Positions 2,704 to 48,898 of a stretch of 64,000 nucleotides of DNA are shown here, one piece after another (the first letter of the stretch is position 1; each line of letters opens with the position of its first letter). A program made the translations under genes and the position numbers. The stretch spans positions 31,320,651 to 31,384,650 of the forward strand of contig OX424558.1 of the NCBI GenBank assembly GCA_949152475.1. The letters are read 5' to 3'. A model generated the notes under the pieces. It had not been told where the DNA came from, did not search any database, and worked only from the letters and a program-made list of their open reading frames with translations. Source of the DNA: Terebella lapidaria (Eukaryota; Annelida; Polychaeta; Terebellida; Terebellidae).

Positions 2704-3540
2704 TGCGACAATCCTTTCATCTATATATATATATATTTCTATGTAATGTATCTATGTACAGCACTTACCCACGAATAAGATGCTCATTTGTATCTTCAAG
2801 TCCATCAAACTTCATAGTCAGAGTCACGAATGCACTCGGCACAGTAGTGAAGTTCTGTTTGAAGTTTCACAGAAAGAATTTTTCAGCGGTGAGAAATTAT
2901 TTTGCAAGATGTAAATGGCTCGAATCACACACATACTAGTACTTTGGTATCACACAACTTTTTTCACCGATCCTTCTTATAATATATTTTGGCTACCATG
3001 GGGGAGATGAGCGATCCAAGTTCAATGGAACTCATAATCGTTGCAAGGGTAGCCATGGGGGAGTACAATGTGTAAATTGGCTAAAAAAAGTCCATGGTAA
3101 TGGTAATTTCAAAGCATGATAGCTCTTTTCACTTTTCAATGTAACCGAGGGTCAAAATCAAGGTCACCACTAACGTTATCATGTCTGACTTCTCATTTGA
3201 ATGTTCTGATATCTAAGCAATATCCTCAAGAAGAGTGCTGATACATGTTTGTATCATACCACCACTGACAGTACGACAAGAGTTTGACGATGTAAAAACG
3301 CAACATCATACACTTTTGGGATAAGAAATCAGCAAACAGATTAAAAATATTTACAGCTCATAATATAGGGAGGAAGTTATTGGACTAATCACTCGTCCGG
3401 TAACTCAAACAAGAGTTGTTTTAAAAAATAAGGTGGAAATCTCCAATCATATGAATATACATGTTGTGAATGATGTTTGGATGCGTCAAGATTGACCAAC
3501 GTGGTCAAAGAGTTTCCCGACCGGAAGAAGAAATTGAGAA
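2704..3540. other. Degenerate interspersed repeat, no gene
   Basis: Contains a repeated GGCTACCATGGGGGAG-like phrase at about 2,991 and 3,048, and AAGGTCA-type phrases that recur elsewhere in the window (8,740, 57,660, 58,110). No coding signal. Confidence 0.4.
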
Positions 3541-4599: not shown

Positions 4600-5063
4600 A
4601 AAACAGATAGGGAAAAACTAAAAAGGGGAAAATAATATACTGACAAAACCATGGGACAATCTGTGCATAAATGTCAAACAGAGCACAGGCATTGCAGAAT
4701 CGTTTGGAGAGATCAAATCGACTGCAGCACCCCGCGTGGGGATCCTTTGACGGGAGAGAAGCTTCATTCAGACGCTCCGACACAAACAGCCAGCCACGGG
4801 CCATTCGTGGCTCAGAGAATCAGAGCGGCAGTGCCTCGGCTTGACGACAGCTTGTGCCACTCGCTGGCGAACCGAGAGGTCTACATCAGACGGCTGGCTG
4901 GCTGGCTGGGATTGGACTGCAGCCGGGACTGTGTGAGATCGACGCACAAGTGTGAATTTTCCTGGGCCATTTCGGTATACAGGATTGGTTGTAAACCAGG
5001 CATTTAAAGGGCTAGAATCACTGAGACCTTTCGCCAGAGGAAAGAATCGAATACGTGTTCAAA
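4600..5063 (+). other. Upstream region of the globin gene
   Basis: Somewhat more GC-rich than its surroundings. It has a long but unconvincing open frame (4,651-5,007) with no recognisable protein. A TATA-like ATTTAAA lies near 5,001, about 60 bases before the globin ATG. This may be the promoter and 5' leader, but nothing else supports that. Confidence 0.25.
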
Positions 5064-5736
5064 ATGGGAGGCGTATTGTCTGTAAAGACTAGTGACTTTA
5101 CGTCTGGAATAAAGTTGATTGACGGAAAACCCTGTGTGGATACCCCCGAGTTCTCACAGAGAGAGAAGGAAATAATCACCAGCACGTGGAAAGTGATTGA
5201 AAGCAAATCAGGCGAGGCAGCAGGGGATATTTTTCTGCGCATATTCGAGCTGCGACCTGATGTGAAAGCATTCTTTCCATTCAGCAAAGCCGTGGGTGAT
5301 GCACTCGTTAACCACCCATACTTCAAAGGACATTCCGTAAGATTCCTCAATGCCATTGGAATGACAGTCATGAACCTGGACGCCTTGGATGTTATACATA
5401 TACCTAACCTGAATAAACTCGGTCGATACCACACAAAAATCCCCGGATTTACTCATGACATTTTCGAGGTGTTTTATCACTCTATGAACTATGTCTGGGC
5501 CAAACATCTGGGCCGAGCTTAGAAACGCCGAGACCAAACGAATCTGGTGTGTGATATTCAAGTTTATTGTCGGTCAAGTAGAGCTGGGATATCACGAAGC
5601 TCTGGCAGAGGAACAAAGTGTGAAACGGCGTACTGAAGCCAATGGTCATGTGGCTGGAAATGCCCAGTCCATGGATGGGGTCGCATCTACGAATGAATCT
5701 GTTTCCACCTCATCTGACGCATCGGAAATCTCGTGA
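5064..5736 (+). pseudogene. Globin (globin X-like, N-myristoylated), intronless, one frameshift
   Basis: Haem-binding globin. The ATG at 5,064 is chosen over upstream GTG because it gives MGGVLS, a perfect N-myristoylation signal (Gly2, Ser6) as in membrane-attached globin X proteins, and has A at -3 and G at +4. Helices A to G are continuous: Trp42 (A12), Phe70/71 (CD corner), His90 (distal E7) and His123 (proximal F8, in GRYH). The frame ends at 5,522 after KHLG. The H helix (LRNAETKRIW...VELGY) and a Ser-rich tail continue in the +1 frame to 5,736. Removing one base near 5,507-5,516 gives exactly the family spacing between the LG and the H-helix Trp. No splice sites flank the break, and the usual globin introns (B12, G7) are absent, suggesting a retrocopy. 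It could be a real lesion or a sequencing error. Family globin: near certain; globin X: likely. Confidence 0.88.
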
Positions 5737-15090: not shown

Positions 15091-15807
15091 GGTGAGGAGT
15101 GTGGGCGCAGTCCAACTGGTTTGAAGAACGAAACTGAGTTCGTTATCGAACATGGGTTGTTTCCACCATTGGGATTTTTGTTTTTCCCTATGCTTCTGTA
15201 ATTAGACTGGGGTAGTTAATCAATAATGATACAAATCATTTGATATTCGTTGAAATGATTTCCCAGTGGCGGGCACGGAGCTCCTTACAAAAAGATTTCA
15301 ATTACTTTGAAGTTGTCTCATTTACATATTGTCCACCTCCGATTTACACCAGTTTTGTTTCGGTTCGTTTATCCACTATTAATCTGAATTGTATTCGATT
15401 TTTGATTTGTCATCATCGATATAGTAGTGACAACATGTCGATACAAACACGATGCTCAATGTCTATAAAAAACATTGTGTTATCATGTATCCGTCATACA
15501 TTCTCGCGTTGTATCATATGCAGTTACACATATACATATTATGATTGTATTTAATTCTAGCTATTGGATGGAATTATGTTCTGTTCTGTCATCGTGATAA
15601 TTAGGTGTCGTCGAACAGCCTCTGAATCGATAATTACGTGAACAGTGAAAATATAAAAATCTTTCGTGGCCATAGTAATTTCCGTATCGTAAATACAAGT
15701 ACATATACTTTATTCAAGTGTCATTGCTGAAGCACTCATCACTCATGAACTTGATATCTCACCATCAAGGTCTACAAACATAACCCATGCAGCTGCCCCA
15801 GCATCAT

Positions 15808-16044
15808 TCATTCCGGCAGCCAGGACAAACCTCTCGTTCTAATAGAGTATATGGGCAAGTGGAGTGGCTTGGGGCTGAAATTTGGTCTGAGCTTCGGGTC
15901 AAGCTTCCAATCCATCAACTGGTTTTGTGAGCTGGAGGCTGGAATCGCTGATATCACAGTTCTCCCCATGTGTGTGCTTATAACTTGATCAAGTTTGATG
16001 TTCAGGTCATCTGATGTGTGGAGGAAGGGCTGCTTCGAGGACAA
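15808..16044 (-). pseudogene. Fragment of the same repeated protein family
   Basis: Minus-strand frame of 78 codons (HTSDDLNIKLDQVISTHMG ... LPIYSIRTRGLSWLPE). The DNA matches 22,450-22,690, where phrases such as CTTATAACTTGATCAAGTT and the CATCATTCA..GCAGCCAG run are kept but the frame is interrupted. Probably a former exon of the gene whose other pieces lie at 16,564-16,875 and 14,930-15,090. Function unknown. Confidence 0.35.
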
Positions 16045-16563
16045 GTGAAGATTGTAATAATTATAAAGAATATCAATACACTTGTTTTTCTAGCATTGTG
16101 TCAGGATGCTAGATGCAGTAAAGACATGTACCGCTGTGATCGGGGCCAAAGCGGGCCCATGGAGAGGCAGTCTGAGAGGGACGGTGTCCAGATACACAGG
16201 GTTTATCTATCTAGAAGCGTATATAGTGTAGGGAAAGGATAGTTTAGTGATAGCCAACAGAGGCATTTTGGGCTGTCCTATACCTTTAAATCTACTGTTC
16301 CATTCAGTTGTTCTATCATGATGAAAATAGACTATAGCTTTTATTTTACTTGAAAAACATCAATGATAAATGGCCCACTCTGCAAACGAGCAGACTTTTT
16401 AACTGAATGAAAGTGCAAAATAGACACTCGAGTTTTCGCGCTGCGTTAATTAACGATCAGATTCCTCGTTTGCTGATTCAGTCCCAGCATTGTAAAAGCA
16501 ATTTCAAATTCATAAATCAGCCGCTGAGTTGACGTCAATGAGCAAAATAATTCGTGATAACGC

Positions 16564-16875
16564 TTATCTTGGAGAGTTATCAACAGCTCCCCAAATGGCC
16601 AATCTGTTTTCTCCTGATTTTACCAAGGCGACTTTTGTCAAGGGAGTTATGATTGATACATTACCATGTGTATCGAGGCCAGTTACGACAAAATCCAATG
16701 GCTGTTGCTTATATTTTGATGAATTTTGCAACATAAAGGGGCGTGAGTCGACAGTGACGGCTAGGGAGAGAGAGATAGACGTGGAATCAATACCCAGTAT
16801 CAAGTATTCCGAGCAAACAAAACAGGGTCCGTTATCCAATCTCATAGTCCGGGGACAGAAAGTCATATCAGGCAT
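16564..16875 (-). pseudogene. Best-preserved exon of the repeated protein family
   Basis: 103-codon minus-strand frame with a protein-like composition (CFVCSEYLILGIDST..., LQNSSKYKQQPLDFVVTGLD, TKVALVKSGENRLAIWGAV). The copy at 23,430-23,510 reads KYTQQPLEFVATGSD, with conservative changes (D/E, V/A) against KYKQQPLDFVVTGLD, and the copy at 925-985 reads DNGLGFVRSEYLVLGY. Conservative substitution across copies argues for a protein once under selection. The 5' part (16,775 onward) lies inside the 233-bp duplication that flanks the Naiad element, so the insertion hit this exon. No known family recognised. Confidence 0.4.
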
Positions 16876-17007
16876 ACGAAGTGAGAGAAAACAAAAATGA
16901 CAGGGAAACTCATGAACCCCCGTAAATGGCCATCAGGAGGTGAAATCAGGTGTTCCGGAAAGAGTGAGCATTTCCTGCCCCACTAGTGGCACCCGTCATG
17001 AATTCCC
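16775..17007. repeat. 233-bp direct duplication, left copy
   Basis: Identical by eye to 20,118-20,350; both begin ATAGACGTGGAATCAATACC and end ACCCGTCATGAATTCCC. The sequence is host DNA, not element DNA, because a diverged copy of its first part exists at 905-985 with no element nearby. Host-segment similarity continues leftward from this copy and rightward from the other one. Confidence 0.85.
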
Positions 17008-17012
17008 CAAAA

Positions 17013-19307
17013 TTAACATGAAAATAGATCTAGTTGCATGGCAGACATGGATTTGCTGTATTTATCAACCAGATCATGATGACGTCCATAGAATTTCTTA
17101 AACGCAGCGATAAGTCTTGGTAAAACATATCCTTGTCGTAGCAGTTTAGAGACTAGCTGGGCACTTCGATAAACAAAGTCCTCATATTTGCAACTAGCTC
17201 TGGAATAGCGTATAAGTTGAGAAACAAACACACCATATGCCGGTGACATAGGAATGTTGCTGCTTAGAAAAGGGAAATTGACTATGGAAAAATTGAAATC
17301 ATCACGTTTGTCATATAATCTAGTTGACAGGTTAGAATCATTATCAATCTCCAACCTCAGGTCTAGATAGTTGGAAAAATTAGCGGATTCTGTAGTATCC
17401 TTAATTTCAAGTTCCTTAGGATATATGATATCCAAATAATCACCAAACTTGGGATTATTTAGCGACAATACATCATCTATGTATCGGAAAGTGAAATTAA
17501 AATTACATGTTAGTTTCTTAGAACCTCCTCTTTGTAAATGTTGGATAAAATCTGATTCATATGAGTATAAAAACAGGTCTGCCAATAATGGTGCACAGTT
17601 TGTACCCATGGGAATACCAATAGTTTGTTGAAATATTCGACCACCAAATTCCACAAAAATATTATCAATCAGAAAATTAACCATATTTACCACATCTATT
17701 TCAGTATATTTGTATGGGGCATCAGAGTCGCCTTTAACAAAATAAGCGGTATTATATTTAACTACAATATAGTGGTACCGACGTTGTCCCTTTTTAGAGA
17801 AAAATGAATTATTGATTTGTTTTTTAAGCTGAGATTTCAGTTCAGAATGAGGTATAGTTGTGTACAAAGTGGAGAAATCAAATGTTTTGATAGACGTTAC
17901 TTTTGAAAGTGTGTGCGCATGTAGATATTCCAATAAAGATTTGGAATTTTCTAATATCCACATTTGGTTTATACCACTTCTAGAATAGATGGTTTCAGAG
18001 TACTTTTGGAGACCCTGTTTAATTTTAGACAATATAGTAGTTAATATTTTAGAAAGGGCTTTGGTAGAACATGATGCTGAACCTGAAATATATCTTTGTT
18101 TGTGTGGATTTTTGTGCAACTTTGGGATCCAATATAAGTTCGGTAGATTAGAATCTTTACATGAGGTAGTAATACCAAACGAATGCAATACAGACAAATG
18201 ATTTGATAAGATATCCTGTTTGGGCACGGTAATGGCTTGGTATGTACTATTGGGATTAGTATTGTTGGCAATACCCAGTTCGTCAAACAGGCACTGTATA
18301 TAGTATGCTTTACAAACAAAAACAACATTATTAGAAGCTTTATCTGCAGGGACAATGACGAACCTTTCTTGAAGTTTCAACAAACTATTAGTAACCACGG
18401 GATCATTGAAGACAGAGCTATATTTAGTACTAACTGACTTTGACAAAACATTGATGCGTTTGTTTACCAATGACCTAATCTGTTTGACCCATTCTGACAG
18501 AGAATCAGTTTCTGCCTTTTCTCGCTTTGTCCATTTTCTGGCATGCTCCTCAACTGCATCCATGATTAACTTAAAATTGTATCTCCATGAAAACGACGTG
18601 GGCTCTCTATATTTGGGACCTTTGGACAAAATGTCTTTCAATGATTCATTCTCCACTATATTGAGGTCGCCTGAAATAACATGCCCAACTGGATCGTGTA
18701 TGAACGGAGAGTTAATGCAAGTGCAGGAGGGTGGGTTATGTAAGAGATCATCAATATCCAAATCATTCAATGTTTGTTTGTAGTTGAAAATCTTGGAAGC
18801 AACAGATTTGGTATATGAGTAGGATACAGATGGAGCAGCCGTGTCAGTGAAGTATGATGGTACCTGGGACTGAACAGACTTATGATGTAATATATTACCG
18901 ATGTTAATTGCATCAATACCTTTATTGGCAAATTTTATCTTCAGAAAAGACCGTTTGGGTGGTATATATTCGGAATTCTGTGTTGGCTTATCAAGCCGAT
19001 GATAAACAATATCCATGATAATGGAATACAGACGAAATTCATAGCTATTGGTATTTCTGATATAGTGGGTAGGACATTGGTCCTCTAGTTCTTTAAGTTT
19101 AACATGAGGTATGGCAAATAATTTAGTGCGAACATAGTGCAGTCCAAGTGGTTGTTTCAATATTTCGAGTAGACCATCAAAGGAAATATTATGAATAGAT
19201 GGTCGATTATAATGTCGTTGTCCATGGCTTCGTTTCCTACGTTTAAATGATGTAAATAAATTCATTACATTGACTGAACTGCATCCTGGGCTTGTCAGGT
19301 TTCCCAC
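17013..19307 (-). CDS. Naiad reverse transcriptase domain
   Basis: Copies the element's RNA into DNA at a nicked target. 764 codons, counted from a GTG that is only the edge of the open frame, since the protein reads in from upstream. Linker motif C195-T-C197 is followed by HVISGDLNIV, both typical of Penelope-like RTs. RT motifs: FDFSTLYTTIP (motif A, Asp477), GIPMGTNCAPLLADLFLY (motif B), YIDD at 609-612 (motif C), NYLDLRLEI (motif D/E). The C-terminal FKKFYGRHHDLV thumb-end motif is also found in a fragment at 63,680-63,750. The basic segment KRRKRSHGQRHYNR near residue 22 may bind nucleic acid. The whole stretch is open, which suggests a young insertion. Family assignment is near certain. 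Confidence 0.93.
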   Translation of the reverse strand: MGNLTSPGCSSVNVMNLFTSFKRRKRSHGQRHYNRPSIHNISFDGLLEILKQPLGLHYVRTKLFAIPHVKLKELEDQCPTHYIRNTNSYEFRLYSIIMDIVYHRLDKPTQNSEYIPPKRSFLKIKFANKGIDAINIGNILHHKSVQSQVPSYFTDTAAPSVSYSYTKSVASKIFNYKQTLNDLDIDDLLHNPPSCTCINSPFIHDPVGHVISGDLNIVENESLKDILSKGPKYREPTSFSWRYNFKLIMDAVEEHARKWTKREKAETDSLSEWVKQIRSLVNKRINVLSKSVSTKYSSVFNDPVVTNSLLKLQERFVIVPADKASNNVVFVCKAYYIQCLFDELGIANNTNPNSTYQAITVPKQDILSNHLSVLHSFGITTSCKDSNLPNLYWIPKLHKNPHKQRYISGSASCSTKALSKILTTILSKIKQGLQKYSETIYSRSGINQMWILENSKSLLEYLHAHTLSKVTSIKTFDFSTLYTTIPHSELKSQLKKQINNSFFSKKGQRRYHYIVVKYNTAYFVKGDSDAPYKYTEIDVVNMVNFLIDNIFVEFGGRIFQQTIGIPMGTNCAPLLADLFLYSYESDFIQHLQRGGSKKLTCNFNFTFRYIDDVLSLNNPKFGDYLDIIYPKELEIKDTTESANFSNYLDLRLEIDNDSNLSTRLYDKRDDFNFSIVNFPFLSSNIPMSPAYGVFVSQLIRYSRASCKYEDFVYRSAQLVSKLLRQGYVLPRLIAAFKKFYGRHHDLVDKYSKSMSAMQLDLFSC

Positions 19308-19439
19308 TGAACTGATATTATCGTTACAGCCATAAGGTGTAGCTGTGCCTAGTTCACGTATCCAATGTTCTTCTCGTTTCCTGCGGGTGGGTGTACCTAA
19401 TGAGGGACTATTAGTATGGTGGTATATTTTTTCTATGAC

Positions 19440-19943
19440 TCAAACTTTCATTGACAAAATAGAATGGTCATCCTGATTAAAATGTTGATAAAGTAGATGA
19501 TTAGAATTATTATTGATGTTGGAACGATGACCATTAACTCTCTTGTTAAGCTGTCCTTTGGTTTCTCCAATATATACGAGACCACATATAGTGCATTCAA
19601 GTCCATATACGATATTGCTGGTCTTGCAATTGATGTTTTCATAACTTTTACTAGTATATGTACGTTTGGTAAGTGAACTTGTGAACTGTGAATCTATAAT
19701 TAATATATCACAAGTTTTGCAGTTTTTTGCTCTACATTTATTAATACTATATTGACAATCATCACCCTCTGCTTTCATTATATCTGGAAGTTTGATTTTG
19801 CAATCTCTAATATTAATAAAATTACACGAGTTGTTGTACCATAGGGAACGATCAGAAGAGACTACGTATGATGTTTTCATAATATCTGATATGATGAGTC
19901 TAGGGGCACCTTCTGAGGAAGCTGTGACCGTGCCCTTGGACAC
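19440..19943 (-). CDS. Naiad GIY-YIG endonuclease domain
   Basis: Nicks target DNA. Cysteines in CQYSINKCRAKNCKTC (upstream zinc-knuckle-like cluster) precede the GIY-YIG core: NIVYGLECTICGLVYIGET with Y124-I-G126 (counted from the GTG at 19,943), then the catalytic arginine region LNKRVNGHRSNI and a downstream HLLYQHF. The frame ends at TGA 19,442-19,440 after SMKV, but the same frame continues directly: VIEKIYHHTNSP...RRKREEHWIRELGTATPYGCND, which is the usual end of this nuclease, and on into the RT. The TGA is therefore either a nonsense change (CGA to TGA at a CpG would do it) or a recoded codon; Naiads of some clams and spiders are reported to use selenocysteine. The true start is upstream and not preserved. 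Confidence 0.9.
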   Translation of the reverse strand: MSKGTVTASSEGAPRLIISDIMKTSYVVSSDRSLWYNNSCNFINIRDCKIKLPDIMKAEGDDCQYSINKCRAKNCKTCDILIIDSQFTSSLTKRTYTSKSYENINCKTSNIVYGLECTICGLVYIGETKGQLNKRVNGHRSNINNNSNHLLYQHFNQDDHSILSMKV

Positions 19944-20117
19944 AGCTTTTTGACACCTTTTTATACTGGGCGCCGTGTCAACCAGTTTGTTTGTCTTTGT
20001 ACTGCATAGTCATTTCAAATACTAGGTTAAACCTAACTATACTAGGTTTACTGAGCTGATGGTGCCAGCGGGGACAAATAATTATCCACCAGCAAAGACA
20101 CCGACTCAGTTATAGTA

Positions 20118-20350
20118 ATAGACGTGGAATCAATACCCAGTATCAAGTATTCCGAGCAAACAAAACAGGGTCCGTTATCCAATCTCATAGTCCGGGGACA
20201 GAAAGTCATATCAGGCATACGAAGTGAGAGAAAACAAAAATGACAGGGAAACTCATGAACCCCCGTAAATGGCCATCAGGAGGTGAAATCAGGTGTTCCG
20301 GAAAGAGTGAGCATTTCCTGCCCCACTAGTGGCACCCGTCATGAATTCCC
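20118..20350. repeat. 233-bp direct duplication, right copy
   Basis: Partner of 16,775-17,007. Downstream of it (20,385-20,450) the host repeat resumes, matching 23,520-23,590 (GGAATTAYGCCTT, AGTTGTGCTGCATACT). Confidence 0.85.
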
Positions 20351-20564
20351 ATATGTAAATGCCCATATGTAAATTAGGTGTAGGTGTGGAATTATGCCTT
20401 GATTCACATGTGTCAGGTTATCTTGTCAGTAGTTGTGCTGCATACTAATGTGTCAATTTCGCAGGGTAGGTGCAATGATGTCGCTGTTTTCGCTAATTGG
20501 GAAGCTACAACCATACAATATCCACAAATTATCGTTCGGAACTTTGCTGGTAACACGGAAGCCC

Positions 20565-20985
20565 ATGTGTGATTTTTGCAGAACGAACGTACACGTATAA
20601 ATTCAAGGCAACTATGTTCACATGTGGAAGTATTTAACGCTTTGACGTTCGCACCTAGAAACGTCTATCTGTCTACCACGTTCAGAGGTGTACCACGTTC
20701 TCACGTGTATAGATGTTAGGCTTCCACGTTCACACGTAGCAAGATTCAAAGCTACGACATCCACACATGAAAACATTCGAGGCTATCACACCTAAAGTTT
20801 TCAATGTACAAACTTGGTAGTCCTAAAAGCTTCCACGTGTGAACGTGGTAGCTTTGAATATTTCTACGTCCGAATCTTTTCACATGTGGTAGAGTTGAAC
20901 TGTCAATGTTCCAACATGATAGCTCCTAAAGTTTCCATGTACGAACGTGAAGGCATTAAATGCTTCCACATGTGAACAAGTAGGT
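20565..20985. repeat. ~30-bp degenerate minisatellite (CACRTGTGAACGTGG type)
   Basis: About a dozen diverged units with TTCCACGT, CACATGTG and ACGTTCACACGT, present in both orientations, so the array can fold back. No coding potential. Confidence 0.55.
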
Positions 20986-21319
20986 GTTATGTGTGTGGCA
21001 TTGTGTATATATCCTAGGACGGATAAAAGGATTCAGAATGAGAGACTGTGTGAAGTCATCGCTTCTTTGAGATCATCCCTTCCGTCCTCCAAGTTATCTA
21101 ATCAGCAATGGGAATGTTTCGGGAACGTTCGTGGGTAATGGTCCATAATGTTCCACAAGTTGCTTGCACCTGAGCAAATTCCCGGAAGGTCTTCAGAAAG
21201 GAGATATATGAGGGAGAAAAATGCATAAATTAAATGGATCACCGAAGAAGAAACTGTTTTCCACATAACCGTAAGAACAAATTGGGACAACTCATATTTT
21301 CAAGAAAAAAAGGCTCAGC

Positions 21320-21490
21320 CGTTATGTCCTGAGCAAACACTCCATTATTGAGTGACCTTGGACTGATAATTTATGTATCCAGTATATTTTGTCAGAGAGC
21401 TACTCCGAACTTAGTAGTAAAACTGACCAGTTAGCATGCATCATCTCGGACGCCAGCAAAACATGATATGTTGCTTGAGTTTCATGGTGA
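21320..21490 (+). repeat. Conserved block A of the repeated segment, copy 3 (eroded)
   Basis: GAGTGACCTTGGACTGATAAT, TGACCAGTTAGCATGCATC and neighbouring phrases match block A at 13,960 and 24,720. More diverged than copies 1 and 2. Confidence 0.5.
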
Positions 21491-21622
21491 GAACGGATAA
21501 CAGGCACGTGTGTTGTCGTTAGTTTGTGTTTCATTGGAGATAAGTTGCGACAGACTTTGACGTTCACCGATGATTTATGGACGTGATACTCAAATGAATA
21601 ATGAATGAAATATGTAAGAATG

Positions 21623-38720: not shown

Positions 38721-38787
38721 AGCACTATAAAAAGGCCATATTTTCAGCAGAAAGTTTCATTACAAAATCAATCAGAGACGAGTCATC

Positions 38788-40128
38788 ATGTCGGAGAAAA
38801 TGACAACTCAGAAACGTCTTCAGCTTATGGATCTCCAACTCAAGTTAATGAAACACCAAAATGAGACCACTATTTTAATGGCGAGAGCCAATAAAATGGC
38901 ACAGAAGAAAAGACAGAAGAAAAACCAAAATCCATTGTTCCAGAAGAAGCCAAAACGCAAGAGGAGATCCTTATGGGTCCGAAATTGGCTACAAAGAAGA
39001 CCCCAGCTCGGACAGTATGCAAGACTCATGAACGAACTTAAACGAGAAGATACCAAGGGCTTCAAAAACTTTCTACGTGTAGATCCCGACTTTTACTACG
39101 AAATCCTGGAAAGGATAGAAGAAAGAATAACTATGCAAGACACCAACTACAGAAAAGCGCTGACACCAGGGCTGAAGCTGGCGATTACGCTGCGCTATTT
39201 GGCATCCGGGGACAATTACCATTCGCTAATGTATGGGTTCAGAGTGGCACACAACACAATCAGCCACGTCATCAGTGAAGTCTGTGAAGCCATCATAGCG
39301 GAGTATGCTTCGGAACAAGTGAAATGTCCCACCACCACAGAGGAATGGAAGAACATCAGCGACAAGTTCTCTGAAAAGTGGAACTTTCATCACTGCCTGG
39401 GAGCACTTGACGGAAAACACATTGCAATTAAGTGTCCAGAGAACAAAGGATCATTGTACTACAATTACAAGGGATTTCCCTTGAATATACTCATGGCTCT
39501 CGTCGACGCGGATTATAAATTTATATGGGTGGATATCGGCAGCCATGGTTCCGCAGGAGATGCCAATGTTTTCAATAATGGAGAACTGAAGGAGGCAATC
39601 AATGCCAATTGCCTGAACTTTCCACCTCCCGACAACCTGCCTAACGATGATCAACCCATGCCATACTTCATTGTTGCCGACGATGCTTTCGCTCTACGTT
39701 CATGGTTGATGAAGCCATATTCCCAGAGACTTATGACCAACGCTCAAAGGATATTCAACTATCGTCTATCGAGAGGAAGAAGAATTGTGGAGAATGCCTT
39801 CGGTATTCTCGCTCATCGATTTAGGTGATTGTTAACGACCATGCAACAGACACCGAAAAACGTCACCTCCATTGTTTTGGCTTGTGTGTGCTTGCACAAT
39901 CTTCTACGTTCTAGAGTACCTGGAGAAGCCAGAGCCATCGCCGATCAGGGGGACTCAGAACATCGTATAATCCCAGGGTTTTGGCGCCAGGACACAGAAC
40001 TCGTCGACGGAACCTCCAGTTTTGCGAACAACACCACTACAGCTGCAGCCAAGAAACAACGTGATTACCTTCGGGAGTACTACAACTCGGAGGCTGGAGC
40101 AGTACCATGGCAGAATGCCATGATATGA
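38788..40128 (+). CDS. Harbinger transposase (DDE_Tnp_4 type), one in-frame stop
   Basis: Cuts and joins the element. The ATG at 38,788 begins a basic N-terminus (KKRQKKNQ... KPKRKRRSLWVRNW, about residues 40-67), then a helix-turn-helix-like region (LKLAITLRYLASGDNYHSLMYGFRVA, 129-154, with NTISHVISEVCEAI following). Catalytic triad: Asp208 in GALDGKH, Asp298 in VADDAF, Glu335 in VENAFGILAHRFR. A TGA at 39,826-39,828 follows HRFR; the same frame resumes at once (LLTTMQQTPKNVTSIVLACVCLHNLL) and runs to the stop at 40,128. Relatives usually have Trp, Cys or another large residue here, so one base change (for example TGG or TGC to TGA) explains it. Otherwise full length. Confidence 0.92.
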
Positions 40129-45169: not shown

Positions 45170-45204
45170 AATATTTGAAAAAAATGTAGCACCATATATA
45201 TTGT

Positions 45205-46287
45205 TTGCAAGACATTCATTGCAGTACAGACATGATGTCCAAATTTGAGAAAGATTGGAATGGTAAAGTACTTATTTCTTGCGGTAGTTCGAATTCCCGT
45301 GGCACTGCAATATTGTTCGCCGAAAATCTGGAATATAAAATATTAGATACCATATTGGATCCGATGGGTAATTTTATTGTGACACAATTAGATATAATGG
45401 ATATGCATGTTTGCCTGATCACACTGTATGGTCCTAATAATGACCAACCAGATTTCTATACGAGTATTATGACACATATAACTAATGCGAATACGTCTAC
45501 CGTTATCATATGTGGAGATTGGAATCTAGTCCAGAATCAACAACTGGACACAAAGAATTATATTAAAGATAATAATGTAAAAAGCAGACAAACCGTTCTG
45601 ATGATGAAAAACCAGTACGATTTAGTAGATCCATGGCGAGTTTTGAATCCCAATGCAAATCAGTACACTTGGTTCAATCGAAATCCAATCAAAATGTCCC
45701 GGTTAGATTTCTTTTTGGTTTCATCCGATATTATGGCTCTAATTAATTATGTTAAACTGAAAACGGGATATCGATCAGATCATTCATTTGTAACAGTGGA
45801 AATAAAAATGTCTAATGAAGAACGGGGTAGGGGTTTCTGGAAATTTAACACATCCCTTCTACAAGACGAAACATATAAAACTCTTGTAAAAAATACTGTG
45901 GAAGAAAACATTACTAGATATCCTGTCGAAGGTGAGGATCTCTCCAACCCTGATGTTAAGTTAACAATAAGTGACCAGCTTTTTTTTGAGACGATAAAGA
46001 TGGAAATTCGAAAAGTAACGATACCCTATTGTAGCAAAAAAAGACGAGATTCGCATAATCGAGAAAAACATATAGAAAAAGAGTTAAAACAATTAGTTGA
46101 ATCGCATCGAGACACCCAACACACAAGTCAGTACATGGATAAAATTAATTCCCTTCAAGATGAACTTCAAGATTTAAGACATGAAACAATTAAAGGCATG
46201 ATTTTGAGGACAAAACTACAATGGATAGAAGAAGGTGAAAAGCCAACCAAAGTTTTTCCGCAAATCTCGAAAAAAAAACTATATTAG
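45205..46287 (+). CDS. LINE B endonuclease domain (APE type), truncated
   Basis: Nicks target DNA to prime reverse transcription. Starts inside the domain at LQDIHCST (the QETHC-type motif), so the first strands with the catalytic Asn are lost or upstream. GDWN at 104-107 (Asp105), SRLDFFLVS, and SDHSF with Asp192-His193 are the expected APE motifs. The second half is a coiled, charged linker (KHIEKELKQLVESH, INSLQDELQDLRHE) leading to LQWIEEGEKPTK, the usual lead-in to the RT. The frame then runs off at an A9 run: with eight A residues it would join the RT frame exactly (ISKKNYISKT). Confidence 0.88.
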   Translation: MQDIHCSTDMMSKFEKDWNGKVLISCGSSNSRGTAILFAENLEYKILDTILDPMGNFIVTQLDIMDMHVCLITLYGPNNDQPDFYTSIMTHITNANTSTVIICGDWNLVQNQQLDTKNYIKDNNVKSRQTVLMMKNQYDLVDPWRVLNPNANQYTWFNRNPIKMSRLDFFLVSSDIMALINYVKLKTGYRSDHSFVTVEIKMSNEERGRGFWKFNTSLLQDETYKTLVKNTVEENITRYPVEGEDLSNPDVKLTISDQLFFETIKMEIRKVTIPYCSKKRRDSHNREKHIEKELKQLVESHRDTQHTSQYMDKINSLQDELQDLRHETIKGMILRTKLQWIEEGEKPTKVFPQISKKKLY

Positions 46288-48898
46288 CAAAACAATTAAC
46301 AAATTAGATATTAACGGTAAAGCTGTTTATGAGTTTAAAGATATTTTACAAGAAAGCAAGAAATATTATCAAAATCTATATAATACTAAAATCAACAAAA
46401 AGGAGCAGGACAATAACATAAATACTTTTTTAGGTAGGGGTATCGTTAATCCACTTTCTGACCAGCTTAGCTCAATTTGCGAAAAAGATTTCACCTTAAC
46501 AGAAATAAAAACAGTAATAAACGACATGAAACAAAATAAAACTCCGGAAATAGATGGTTTTCCAGCAGAAATGTATAAAACATTTTGGAATGAATTAGGT
46601 TATTTCTTACTTAGATCTATAAGAGAGGCATTTAAAGAGGGACAATTATCTATTACTCAGCGACGTGGGATTATTACTTGTATACCAAAAGGAGATAAAC
46701 CCAGGGAATTCTTGAAAAACTGGCGTCCAATTTCTTTATTAAACTCCGATTATAAAATTATAACAAGTGTTTTGGCAAAAAGAATGAAATCTATACTCCC
46801 ACAAATAATAGGGCTACAACAAAAGGGATTCTTGAAAGACAGATTTATCGAAGAAAATACAAGAATGGTTTACGATATAATACAATACTGTAAGGATTCT
46901 AATCGGGAGGGATTGCTACTACTATTAGATTTTGAGAAAGCATTCGATTCGATAGAGTGGTCATATATCAGGAAGGTACTCGCCGCATATAATTTTGGTG
47001 CAAATTTTATCAGATGGTTCGATACTATTTATAATGGGGCCCAGAGTTGTGTCATTAATAATGGCCATTTTTCAGAATTCTTTGCATTAGGTCGGGGGTG
47101 TAGACAGGGTGATCCTTTATCACCGTATATTTTTATCCTAGCAATTGAACCTTTAGCTCAAGCCATTATTAAATGTAGAGATATACGCGGTTTATATTTC
47201 GGGAACCTCGAAGTCAAAATAGGTCAATACGCAGACGATACCTTCCTAATACTCAATGGTAATCAAAATTCTACAAAAGAAGTTATCCATATACTAAATA
47301 ATTTTGAAAAAACATCGGGATTGAAAATCAATGTTGACAAATCTCAAGCAATTAAATTAGGGCCACCTCCTCAAGACAATATATGCCCGGTCCTAAATAT
47401 ACCGTTTTCATCTTCGTTTAAGCTTCTGGGAATAAGTTTTTCTACAAACCTAAATGATATGGATGACCAAAATTTCAGAGGAAAAATTAATAAAATTAAA
47501 AATATTTTACAATTTTATTCGAAACACACATACACGCTTCCGGGTAGGATTACAGTAGTAAAAATGCACATTCTTCCCCAACTCGTACACCTTTTGGTAG
47601 TCCTTCCAAATCCACAACCACAGTATCAAAAGGAAATCAATGATATCCTGTCTAAATTTATTTGGAATTCAAAAAGGCCAAAAATTCAGTTTAATTTACT
47701 GGTTCAGGAAATTAAAATCGGGGGACAAAAAATGTTACATTTTGATGCTTTTTGTAAAGCTTCAAAACTTGCATGGATAAATGAAATTAATAAATCATCA
47801 ATTGCTAACTCATGGATGAGTGTTGTTTCGGTAATATTAAAGGAAAAACATGTAAATTTGCTATTTGAAGGAAGCGTTCAATTTATCAAAGAGAAGGGCA
47901 AGTTGATAAATAATAACTTTTGGAAAAATGTGCTTGATTCATGGGTCTATTACAGGCAGAATGTACAATCCACCCCAATTGTTGAACAAATATCGGATAC
48001 AGTTATATGGAATGCGCAATATATCAAAAACACGAACATTCTACATCGTAAAAACTATTTTATTGAAAAAGGTTTGGTTTATTATAAACAACTTTTAACA
48101 AAAAACGGCACTTTCCACACTAGGGAGGGTATTAAACATAACTTCGGAATAGAATTCAATTTTCTAGATTACATGACCATAATTCAATCAATACCTGTGG
48201 TTAACAGACACTTTTTACTGAATATCTATAACGGAAGGGGACAAGACAATGGGGAAATTATTAGAAATGTGTGCGCGAAGCAAAAGGTCTGTAAAGTAAT
48301 ATACAACCAAATAATCGTCAAACTTCCGTATGATGTAAAATGTATTCACAAATGGAATGAATGTCTTGCAATACAACTAACATATGAAGACTGGAGTAAC
48401 ATTTTTGATCTAGCGAATGCAATTTCTATTAACAAACAACTCACATCCTTCCAATATAAAATCCTACACCGCATTCTCCCTACAAATAAGCTCCTTGTCC
48501 TGTATAATATAAAGAATAATGCAAATTGTGAATATTGCCCGAATGCCATTGAGGACTTGTTACACCTCTTCCATGTATGTCCCACGAAATTGAAAATTTG
48601 GTACGGAATTGCGGATTGGTTATTACCGGATTTAGATATTTATCCATTCATTAATTCGGAATTTATACTTTTGGGAATTTACAGTCTGAATAAACCCTTG
48701 GAAAATTCCATAATACTTTTAGTTAAAAGGTATATATATGTTAAGAAATGTAAGGAACAGGCGGTGAGCATTGCGGGAGCAAAACATTTTATAAAGCAAA
48801 ACATGATAAATGATTTTAACTTGAAAGATGAAACTTTCCGTTCGAAACAGAAAGGTATATGGGCACCGATTTATTCTAAAGTAAATAATATAAAGTAG
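46235..48898 (+). CDS. LINE B reverse transcriptase and C-terminal zinc knuckle
   Basis: 887 codons, continuing the endonuclease protein after a one-base frameshift. RT motifs: finger region (PKGDKPREFLKNWRPISLLN), motif A LLDFEKAFDS (Asp232), motif B GRGCRQGDPLSPYIF, motif C QYADDTFL (Tyr332-Asp335), motif D LKINVDKSQ. The C-terminal part has the L1-clade CCHC-like knuckle beginning CEYC at 765-768, then LLHLFHVC. The QYADDT form and the length fit the L1/Tx1 group. No stops to the natural end, 18 bases after a Lys/Trp-rich tail. Clade call by motif style only. Confidence 0.93.
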   Translation: MKSQPKFFRKSRKKNYISKTINKLDINGKAVYEFKDILQESKKYYQNLYNTKINKKEQDNNINTFLGRGIVNPLSDQLSSICEKDFTLTEIKTVINDMKQNKTPEIDGFPAEMYKTFWNELGYFLLRSIREAFKEGQLSITQRRGIITCIPKGDKPREFLKNWRPISLLNSDYKIITSVLAKRMKSILPQIIGLQQKGFLKDRFIEENTRMVYDIIQYCKDSNREGLLLLLDFEKAFDSIEWSYIRKVLAAYNFGANFIRWFDTIYNGAQSCVINNGHFSEFFALGRGCRQGDPLSPYIFILAIEPLAQAIIKCRDIRGLYFGNLEVKIGQYADDTFLILNGNQNSTKEVIHILNNFEKTSGLKINVDKSQAIKLGPPPQDNICPVLNIPFSSSFKLLGISFSTNLNDMDDQNFRGKINKIKNILQFYSKHTYTLPGRITVVKMHILPQLVHLLVVLPNPQPQYQKEINDILSKFIWNSKRPKIQFNLLVQEIKIGGQKMLHFDAFCKASKLAWINEINKSSIANSWMSVVSVILKEKHVNLLFEGSVQFIKEKGKLINNNFWKNVLDSWVYYRQNVQSTPIVEQISDTVIWNAQYIKNTNILHRKNYFIEKGLVYYKQLLTKNGTFHTREGIKHNFGIEFNFLDYMTIIQSIPVVNRHFLLNIYNGRGQDNGEIIRNVCAKQKVCKVIYNQIIVKLPYDVKCIHKWNECLAIQLTYEDWSNIFDLANAISINKQLTSFQYKILHRILPTNKLLVLYNIKNNANCEYCPNAIEDLLHLFHVCPTKLKIWYGIADWLLPDLDIYPFINSEFILLGIYSLNKPLENSIILLVKRYIYVKKCKEQAVSIAGAKHFIKQNMINDFNLKDETFRSKQKGIWAPIYSKVNNIK

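Follow-up and report, generated by a model that had tools for sequence, protein, structure and literature searches.

The DNA studied here is a window of 64,000 nucleotides from the polychaete Terebella lapidaria (contig OX424558.1 of assembly GCA_949152475.1, positions 31,320,651 to 31,384,650), which contains a Penelope-like element (PLE) with a GIY-YIG endonuclease (EN) domain upstream of its reverse transcriptase (RT). The locus raises the question of whether this element belongs to the Naiad clade, as a first-pass annotation had proposed, and of how such elements insert into the genome. Overall, the element is very probably a copy that lost its function in a Naiad-type family that was active until recently; for this family we propose that the RNA is bound at a hairpin near the start of reverse transcription and that a short tandem repeat may be copied in trans. 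Taken by itself, the window feature is unremarkable: a dead element from a clade already described, to which it adds one more family; the link of its hairpin to an abundant short repeat is a lead that matters more than the element.

On the minus strand, the frame of the telomerase-like RT runs from stop to stop between 17013 and 19439 (an open reading frame, ORF, of 808 codons) and is preceded, in the identical frame, by a 189-aa ORF with the GIY-YIG domain (19440-20009), from which it is split by a single TGA (19442-19440). The RVT_1 match in the 808-aa frame exceeds the Pfam cut-off. GIY-YIG scores 20.3 bits in the upstream ORF alone, under the cut-off of 22.6 bits, 23.0 bits when read through the TGA, just over it, and 23.6 bits in an intact sister copy (P0001). 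By comparison with sister copies, the N-terminal part of GIY-YIG lies at 19443-20013, where 20013 is the position of their start codon; the remainder of the domain, a linker with a CxC motif and the RT with its YIDD, recognised by Pfam and motif reading, occupy 17016-19439. The CxC motif (Cys-Thr-Cys, 18717-18725) falls at residues 239 and 241 of the 808-aa frame, which are Cys195 and Cys197 of the 764-residue frame where the first-pass annotation had correctly placed it. The order of the two domains in one frame, also proposed there, is confirmed, but the endonuclease frame of this copy is broken because the TGA falls inside the GIY-YIG match. In addition, a 5-nt deletion near 19992 shifts the ATG at 20013 out of frame; these 5 nt, close to the start codon, are present in all 29 other copies fetched. 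The private substitutions of the window copy number nine (one silent, seven amino-acid changing and one nonsense). This copy is therefore inactivated, and the first-pass annotation, which took the RT frame as intact, had missed both the TGA and the deletion.

The extent of the insertion, previously given as 17008-20117, is wider. Two direct repeats of 233 nt, 100% identical to each other, bound the element and place the insertion at 16775-20350 (minus strand). Direct repeats and unit mapping resolve these 3576 bp into a 3343-bp unit and a second, 5'-truncated copy of 233 bp. The repeat at 20118-20350 is the 5' copy of the pseudo-long terminal repeat (pLTR), and that at 16775-17007 is the 3' copy, whose end is the usual 3' end of the family's insertions.

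A DNA search of the element's own genome (761.6 Mb) scored 40 of 3083 first-look candidates, and 30 loci were extracted (L009, the window copy, to L038). All 40 scored matches were 99-100% identical, far above chance, and 39 of them spanned the whole query. An intact 1001-aa ORF is present in 26 of the 30 copies and is broken in L009, L031, L034 and L036; both cysteines of the CxC motif are present in all 30. A 33-mer of RT motif B has 1,767 sites in the genome (up to 3 mismatches, so that close relatives are possibly counted; control 0), which agrees with the many copies anticipated in the first-pass annotation. Both pLTR copies are full in 24 loci and match each other exactly in 18 of these; the other 6 of the 30 are without one. 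Among the 29 other copies we counted 80 nonsynonymous and 54 synonymous variants and 2 stops, an N/S ratio of 1.48 against 2.5-3.4 for neutral change; therefore, the parents were functional copies. The family is young, abundant and recently active. Recent activity had been claimed before on the grounds of an intact RT frame; the claim stands for the family, but not for that reason, since the window copy is inactivated. No relatives of the element were confirmed in viral contigs. Elsewhere in the genome, five same-strand RT matches with equal scores lie 18.7-21 kb apart (G000:C3:8222261-8300302), which suggests a segmental tandem array.

These copies also bear on two other explanations of the split frame. 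The TGA is single and in frame, as a selenocysteine codon of an intact selenoprotein would be, and selenocysteine-bearing Naiads are said to occur in spiders and clams. However, the codon at 19440-19442 is Arg in the 29 other fetched copies, the 21-mer with the TGA has one site in the genome against 163 exact sites for the same 21-mer with the Arg codon, no SECIS element matched at E≤1 in window positions 15500-21500, and a frame-shifting deletion accompanies the TGA; we reject this explanation for the family and give it next to no weight. Since the window shows two ORFs, these could also have come from two adjacent insertions, an outcome that the first-pass annotation had named as contrary to its proposal. 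This, too, is rejected and extremely improbable: the sister copies carry both domains in one 1001-aa ORF, a second family (L043) has the same layout, and 39 of the 40 scored matches cover the whole stretch elsewhere.

Naiads are reportedly characterised by an N-terminal GIY-YIG, a CxC linker, an insertion-in-fingers domain (IFD) and no hammerhead ribozyme. In intact sister P0001, GIY-YIG (136-225) and RVT_1 (635-852) lie in a single ORF, and the L043 family, with 61% identity across 1003 aligned positions, shares both the CxC and the arrangement of EN and RT in one frame. A GIY-YIG C-terminal to the RT, the hallmark of canonical PLEs (Penelope/Poseidon, Neptune, Nematis), is not the layout here. 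Such C-terminal-EN (C-EN) PLEs are found in the same genome (L039-L041 and L046-L049) and were used as internal comparators. The stretch from RT motif A to motif B, at 17619-17849 in the window, measures 77 residues with an IFD-like insert in the window copy, P0001 and L043, compared with 51, 49 and 51 in L039, L040 and L046; motif spacing is what speaks for the IFD. An RT tree of three N-terminal-EN, three C-EN and four LINE rows, all from within this genome, separated an N-EN group (support 96/97) from a C-EN group (98/97), so that the grouping with C-EN elements that would have spoken against a Naiad was not seen with these three. The tree is thinly sampled, the program warned that long branches meet, and its root is for drawing only; the window RT was omitted because it is a near-copy of P0001.

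Regarding the hammerhead, a scan for the core under strict criteria, run on 81 loci plus the window element, matched only four of the seven C-EN loci (L039, L041, L046 and L048), and a looser core is found in a fifth (L040). The cores with a paired stem II near C-EN PLEs are at L039:3281 (plus strand) and, on the reverse strand, at 3184, 3160 and 3254 of L041, L046 and L048, respectively. Rfam at E≤0.5 did not report those of L039, L041 and L046, and because of this Rfam silence alone is weak evidence. A genome-wide search for hammerhead families gave 0 matches with 73 of 196,455 candidates scored and no control detected, and says nothing on this point. Taken together, the domain order, the CxC, the A-to-B length, the lack of a hammerhead core and the RT grouping support the assignment as a Naiad-type Penelope-like retrotransposon, as the first-pass annotation had it. 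Tandems sharing pLTRs and a high copy number are further traits in common with the clade; unlike the Naiads reported as selenoproteins, the window family is not one, and the hairpin, the 363-bp repeat and the 5' filler described below are not known as traits of the clade. Naiad is reportedly told apart from Chlamys, the two being listed as PLE classes in the literature, by a CCHH motif in its EN. The EN of the window family has a Cys-x2-Cys immediately before its VYIGET stretch and several His, which may or may not correspond to such a motif.

How these elements insert can be read from their ends. In 24 of the 30 fetched loci the 3' end lies within the locus, and in all 24 it maps to unit nt 232-234; in the remaining six, which are units of arrays, the match continues beyond the locus. 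BLAST extends 2-11 nt past this end, with mismatches, in 6 of the 24 (L019, L022, L027, L031, L033 and L035), which we read as chance or microhomology. By contrast with this fixed end, the 17 in-locus 5' ends are scattered along the unit. Insertions exceeding one unit are common, with a period of 3348 bp and pLTRs shared between tandem units, which differ from each other at 0-1 positions in three arrays. The insertions end 104 nt before the sister-copy ATG with no tail seen, and the 21-mer at the 3' end is followed by A, C or G at 1,488 sites. A fixed 3' end, scattered 5' ends and multi-unit insertions fit target-primed synthesis from a fixed internal position of the RNA, on a multimeric or circular template. 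Neither 12 long copies (mean 5.33 vs 4.84, with 36 of 500 shuffled pairings as high) nor 16 short copies (5.19 vs 5.08, 176 of 500) showed a clear signal of target site duplications (TSDs). L035, with both ends in its locus, was excluded from the long set because its 5' flank is element-like; for the short set, 20 copies were fetched, two of which had no clear 5' end, and L060 and L068 were left out of the 18 that had one in the locus.

A similar pattern has been described for other PLEs. According to Frangieh et al. 2024 (PMC11167929), Poseidon PAc of Anolis starts reverse transcription in vitro at an internal site near the pLTR-ORF junction; like the window family as we read it, PAc combines an internal start with tandem repeats that share pLTRs and with a stem loop at the start site. 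Its C-terminal EN, hammerhead, main start 111-118 bp into the ORF and optional tail of 30-40 bp are its own, whereas the window family ends ahead of its ATG and is tailless in the copies seen. In PMC3846280, the EN+ Penelope elements of Adineta vaga likewise include partial tandems and one TSD-less insertion with a 5' junction formed by microhomology, although they are of the C-terminal-EN type, have TSDs of 8-10 bp in several cases and commonly carry inverted pLTRs.

The 3'-end point (unit nt 233) is followed at a distance of 7 nt by an RNA stem-loop, at 20047-20110 of the window on the minus strand, as read from the fold of a sister copy, pair counts and a model match. The 146-nt stretch that contains it has a fold z of -4.45 in sister copy L013, and its L043 counterpart one of -2.80. 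Between the hairpins of the window family and L043, 6 of the 21 pairs differ, none of them broken and three with double changes. A covariance model, built partly from the window family, scores 90.1 bits on the window hairpin. The model of both Naiad families found 21 matches of 31-58.7 bits in 11 further loci, all of a 363-bp tandem element, and no match at E≤0.001 in C-EN loci L039-L041. When 16 distinct rows from the three groups were aligned, 93.3% of the cells paired and four pairs were double-changed (0 of 500 shuffles; 0-1 in slid controls), but in helix 1 one pair is open in 11 of the 16 rows; the covariation signal arises from the three groups combined. Weak model matches in L042 and on the plus strand of the window at 17572-17632 (E 0.044 and 0.25) were read as chance. 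A loose hairpin pattern has 1,245 sites in the genome (control 1). Among the 100 matches listed, all on contig C1, the two Naiad types account for six, and most of the others belong to a third type that often recurs in tandem every 355-365 bp or so. On contig C2 (G000:C2:52243159-52279263), hairpin copies occur in five sets of six with a 76-bp spacing; the sets are separated by 7.9-9.3 kb, and a Naiad endonuclease site follows every set at a distance of about 1 kb. We met no published Naiad hairpin or hammerhead-free partner in the excerpts of the literature searched, which did not include the main Naiad paper, and novelty is unproven.

The 363-bp element was read in 12 loci (L070-L081, e.g. 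L071:60-2185; contig G000:C1). Its unit measures 361-363 bp with a GC content of 0.385-0.408 (8 units from 3 arrays) and is non-coding, the longest stop-free stretch being 70 codons in a tandem unit of L071. Units are 99.6% identical within arrays (8 pairs, 3 arrays) but 89.2% between arrays (20 pairs). In 9 of the 11 readable loci the 3' end lies at unit nt 358-364, which leaves 1-7 nt to the hairpin that follows (6-7 nt in six of the nine and 1-4 nt in the other three); L076, about 80% identical, and L081 deviate from this, and in L073 the repeat extends past both ends of the locus. The core of the element has 11,553 sites genome-wide (up to 2 mismatches, control 0), with at least one run of 16 sites at 363-bp spacing among the matches listed. 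In the window, likeness to the unit is confined to the hairpin region. No hammerhead was detected in this element by Rfam at E≤1 (L070-L075) or by the strict core scan (L070-L081); loose, unpaired core matches occur in L073, L075, L076 and L080. The 5' junction of Naiad copy L026 includes a 23-nt piece that resembles unit nt 331-353, a part of the repeat close to its 3' end. Just upstream of a divergent Naiad copy, L042:3588-3801 holds a 93% identical piece of the element (unit nt 148-362).

These features recall metazoan retrozymes. According to Cervera and de la Pena 2020 (PMC7229834), these have tandem monomers of about 300 bp with a type I hammerhead, a GC content under 45% and thousands of copies, and PLE dependence is suspected for them; the mussel repeats, of about 350-390 bp, are near the 363-bp element in size. 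PLEs were proposed as their movers from co-occurrence and shared hammerheads, in PMC7229834 and PMC7761336. In contrast to retrozymes, for which the type I hammerhead is the defining feature, the 363-bp element carries none that was detected. It is a candidate Naiad-mobilised, retrozyme-like, hammerhead-free element, which may be copied by the Naiad machinery. A hairpin near the 3' end that an abundant short repeat has in common with a PLE points to a candidate for the enzyme that moves metazoan retrozyme-like tandem repeats, and to its candidate RNA signal. If true, this would be sequence evidence for a Penelope-like element driving such repeats.

At the 5' junction, 50 nt across the junction of 17 long copies gave a mean longest direct repeat of 8.76 nt, compared with 5.48 after shuffling (0 of 100 as high) and with 5.06 in the 5' flank 90-140 nt away. 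The effect at 24 3' junctions is small (5.42 vs 4.87; 0 of 100) and is similar in the 3' flank 90-140 nt away (5.58 vs 5.13; 1 of 100), so that the genome is slightly repetitive on that side too. In 4 of the 17 long copies, one of which (L027) has an uncertain boundary, the filler repeats at least 10 nt of the element's own 5' end, as against 3 of 272 mismatched pairs. Short, older copies showed this in 1 of 18 (3 of 306 mismatched), and the general repeat signal in 16 of them was weak (5.94 vs 5.13; 1 of 200); this speaks against the filler as a universal rule. Templated filler suggests end joining of the polymerase theta type, or template switching by the RT, and would be a sequence signature of how a PLE insertion closes.

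Putting these data together, we propose that the Naiad protein would bind its own RNA at the hairpin, that its GIY-YIG domain would nick the DNA, and that reverse transcription would begin a few nt upstream of the hairpin and not at the RNA end. The template would be multimeric or circular, yielding cDNAs that cover more than one unit, and the 5' junction would be closed via end joining with templated filler. In the least certain step, the tandem element of about 363 nt with the same hairpin could be copied in trans by this machinery. We see about even chances that Naiads and the 363-nt element share a cis-acting hairpin, with the short element being a hammerhead-free parasite that depends on the Naiad protein to bind its RNA and copy it in trans, and with the hairpin, or an unrecognised processing RNA of which it is part, replacing the hammerhead region of canonical PLEs.

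Two parts of this scheme have alternatives. The 363-bp repeat could be an independent satellite, or the untranslated region of an unsampled Naiad family, not moved by Naiads: it was read in 12 loci, no autonomous partner with its sequence was identified, and a piece of it precedes the ORF in Naiad copy L042. Its arrays are short and dispersed, their flanks differ and they share a 3' end directly ahead of the hairpin, all of which argues otherwise, as do core sites about 6.5 times as numerous as Naiad RT sites (counted at different mismatch limits), the short stop-free stretch of its tandem unit and the restriction of its likeness with the window to the hairpin region. We regard an independent repeat as a real possibility, somewhat short of an even chance. 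For the 5' junctions, the short repeats could reflect insertion into pre-existing microsatellites, toward which Naiads are reportedly biased, and repeats of at least 9 nt do occur within 60 nt of host flank alone in 8 of the 17 long copies, compared with 0 of 17 at 160-220 nt. Yet the enrichment is strong on the 5' side and small at the 3' junction, and the repeated piece is the element's own 5'-end sequence in four copies, far more often than in mismatched pairs; we consider pre-existing microsatellites the less likely source, though still a plausible one, and favour filler made at joining.

Several points weigh against our explanation as a whole. The Naiad label draws on reported traits of the clade and on comparators from the same genome instead of published Naiad sequences, and the intact fraction is biased upward because the 30 copies were those that matched the window most closely, which favours young, whole copies. 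No solved structure in the PDB matched by sequence, and a profile search gave 10 weak matches, the best at E 0.29 and none of them named telomerase. The hairpin covariation between just the two Naiad families is equalled by 62 of 500 shuffles, the 363-bp rows alone show none, and the joint alignment was made by fitting the rows to the model. The 11 differences between units in a fourth array (L025/L030) argue against one template per array in every case. Each step of the mechanism is read from sequence, and mobilisation in trans, in particular, from just a common hairpin and a similar 3'-end position.

Other features of the window are a LINE with endonuclease-like and RT frames at 45190-48898, a transposase ORF with a DDE_Tnp_4 domain at 38731-39828 and, at 5025-5519, a globin exon that is likely part of a host gene.

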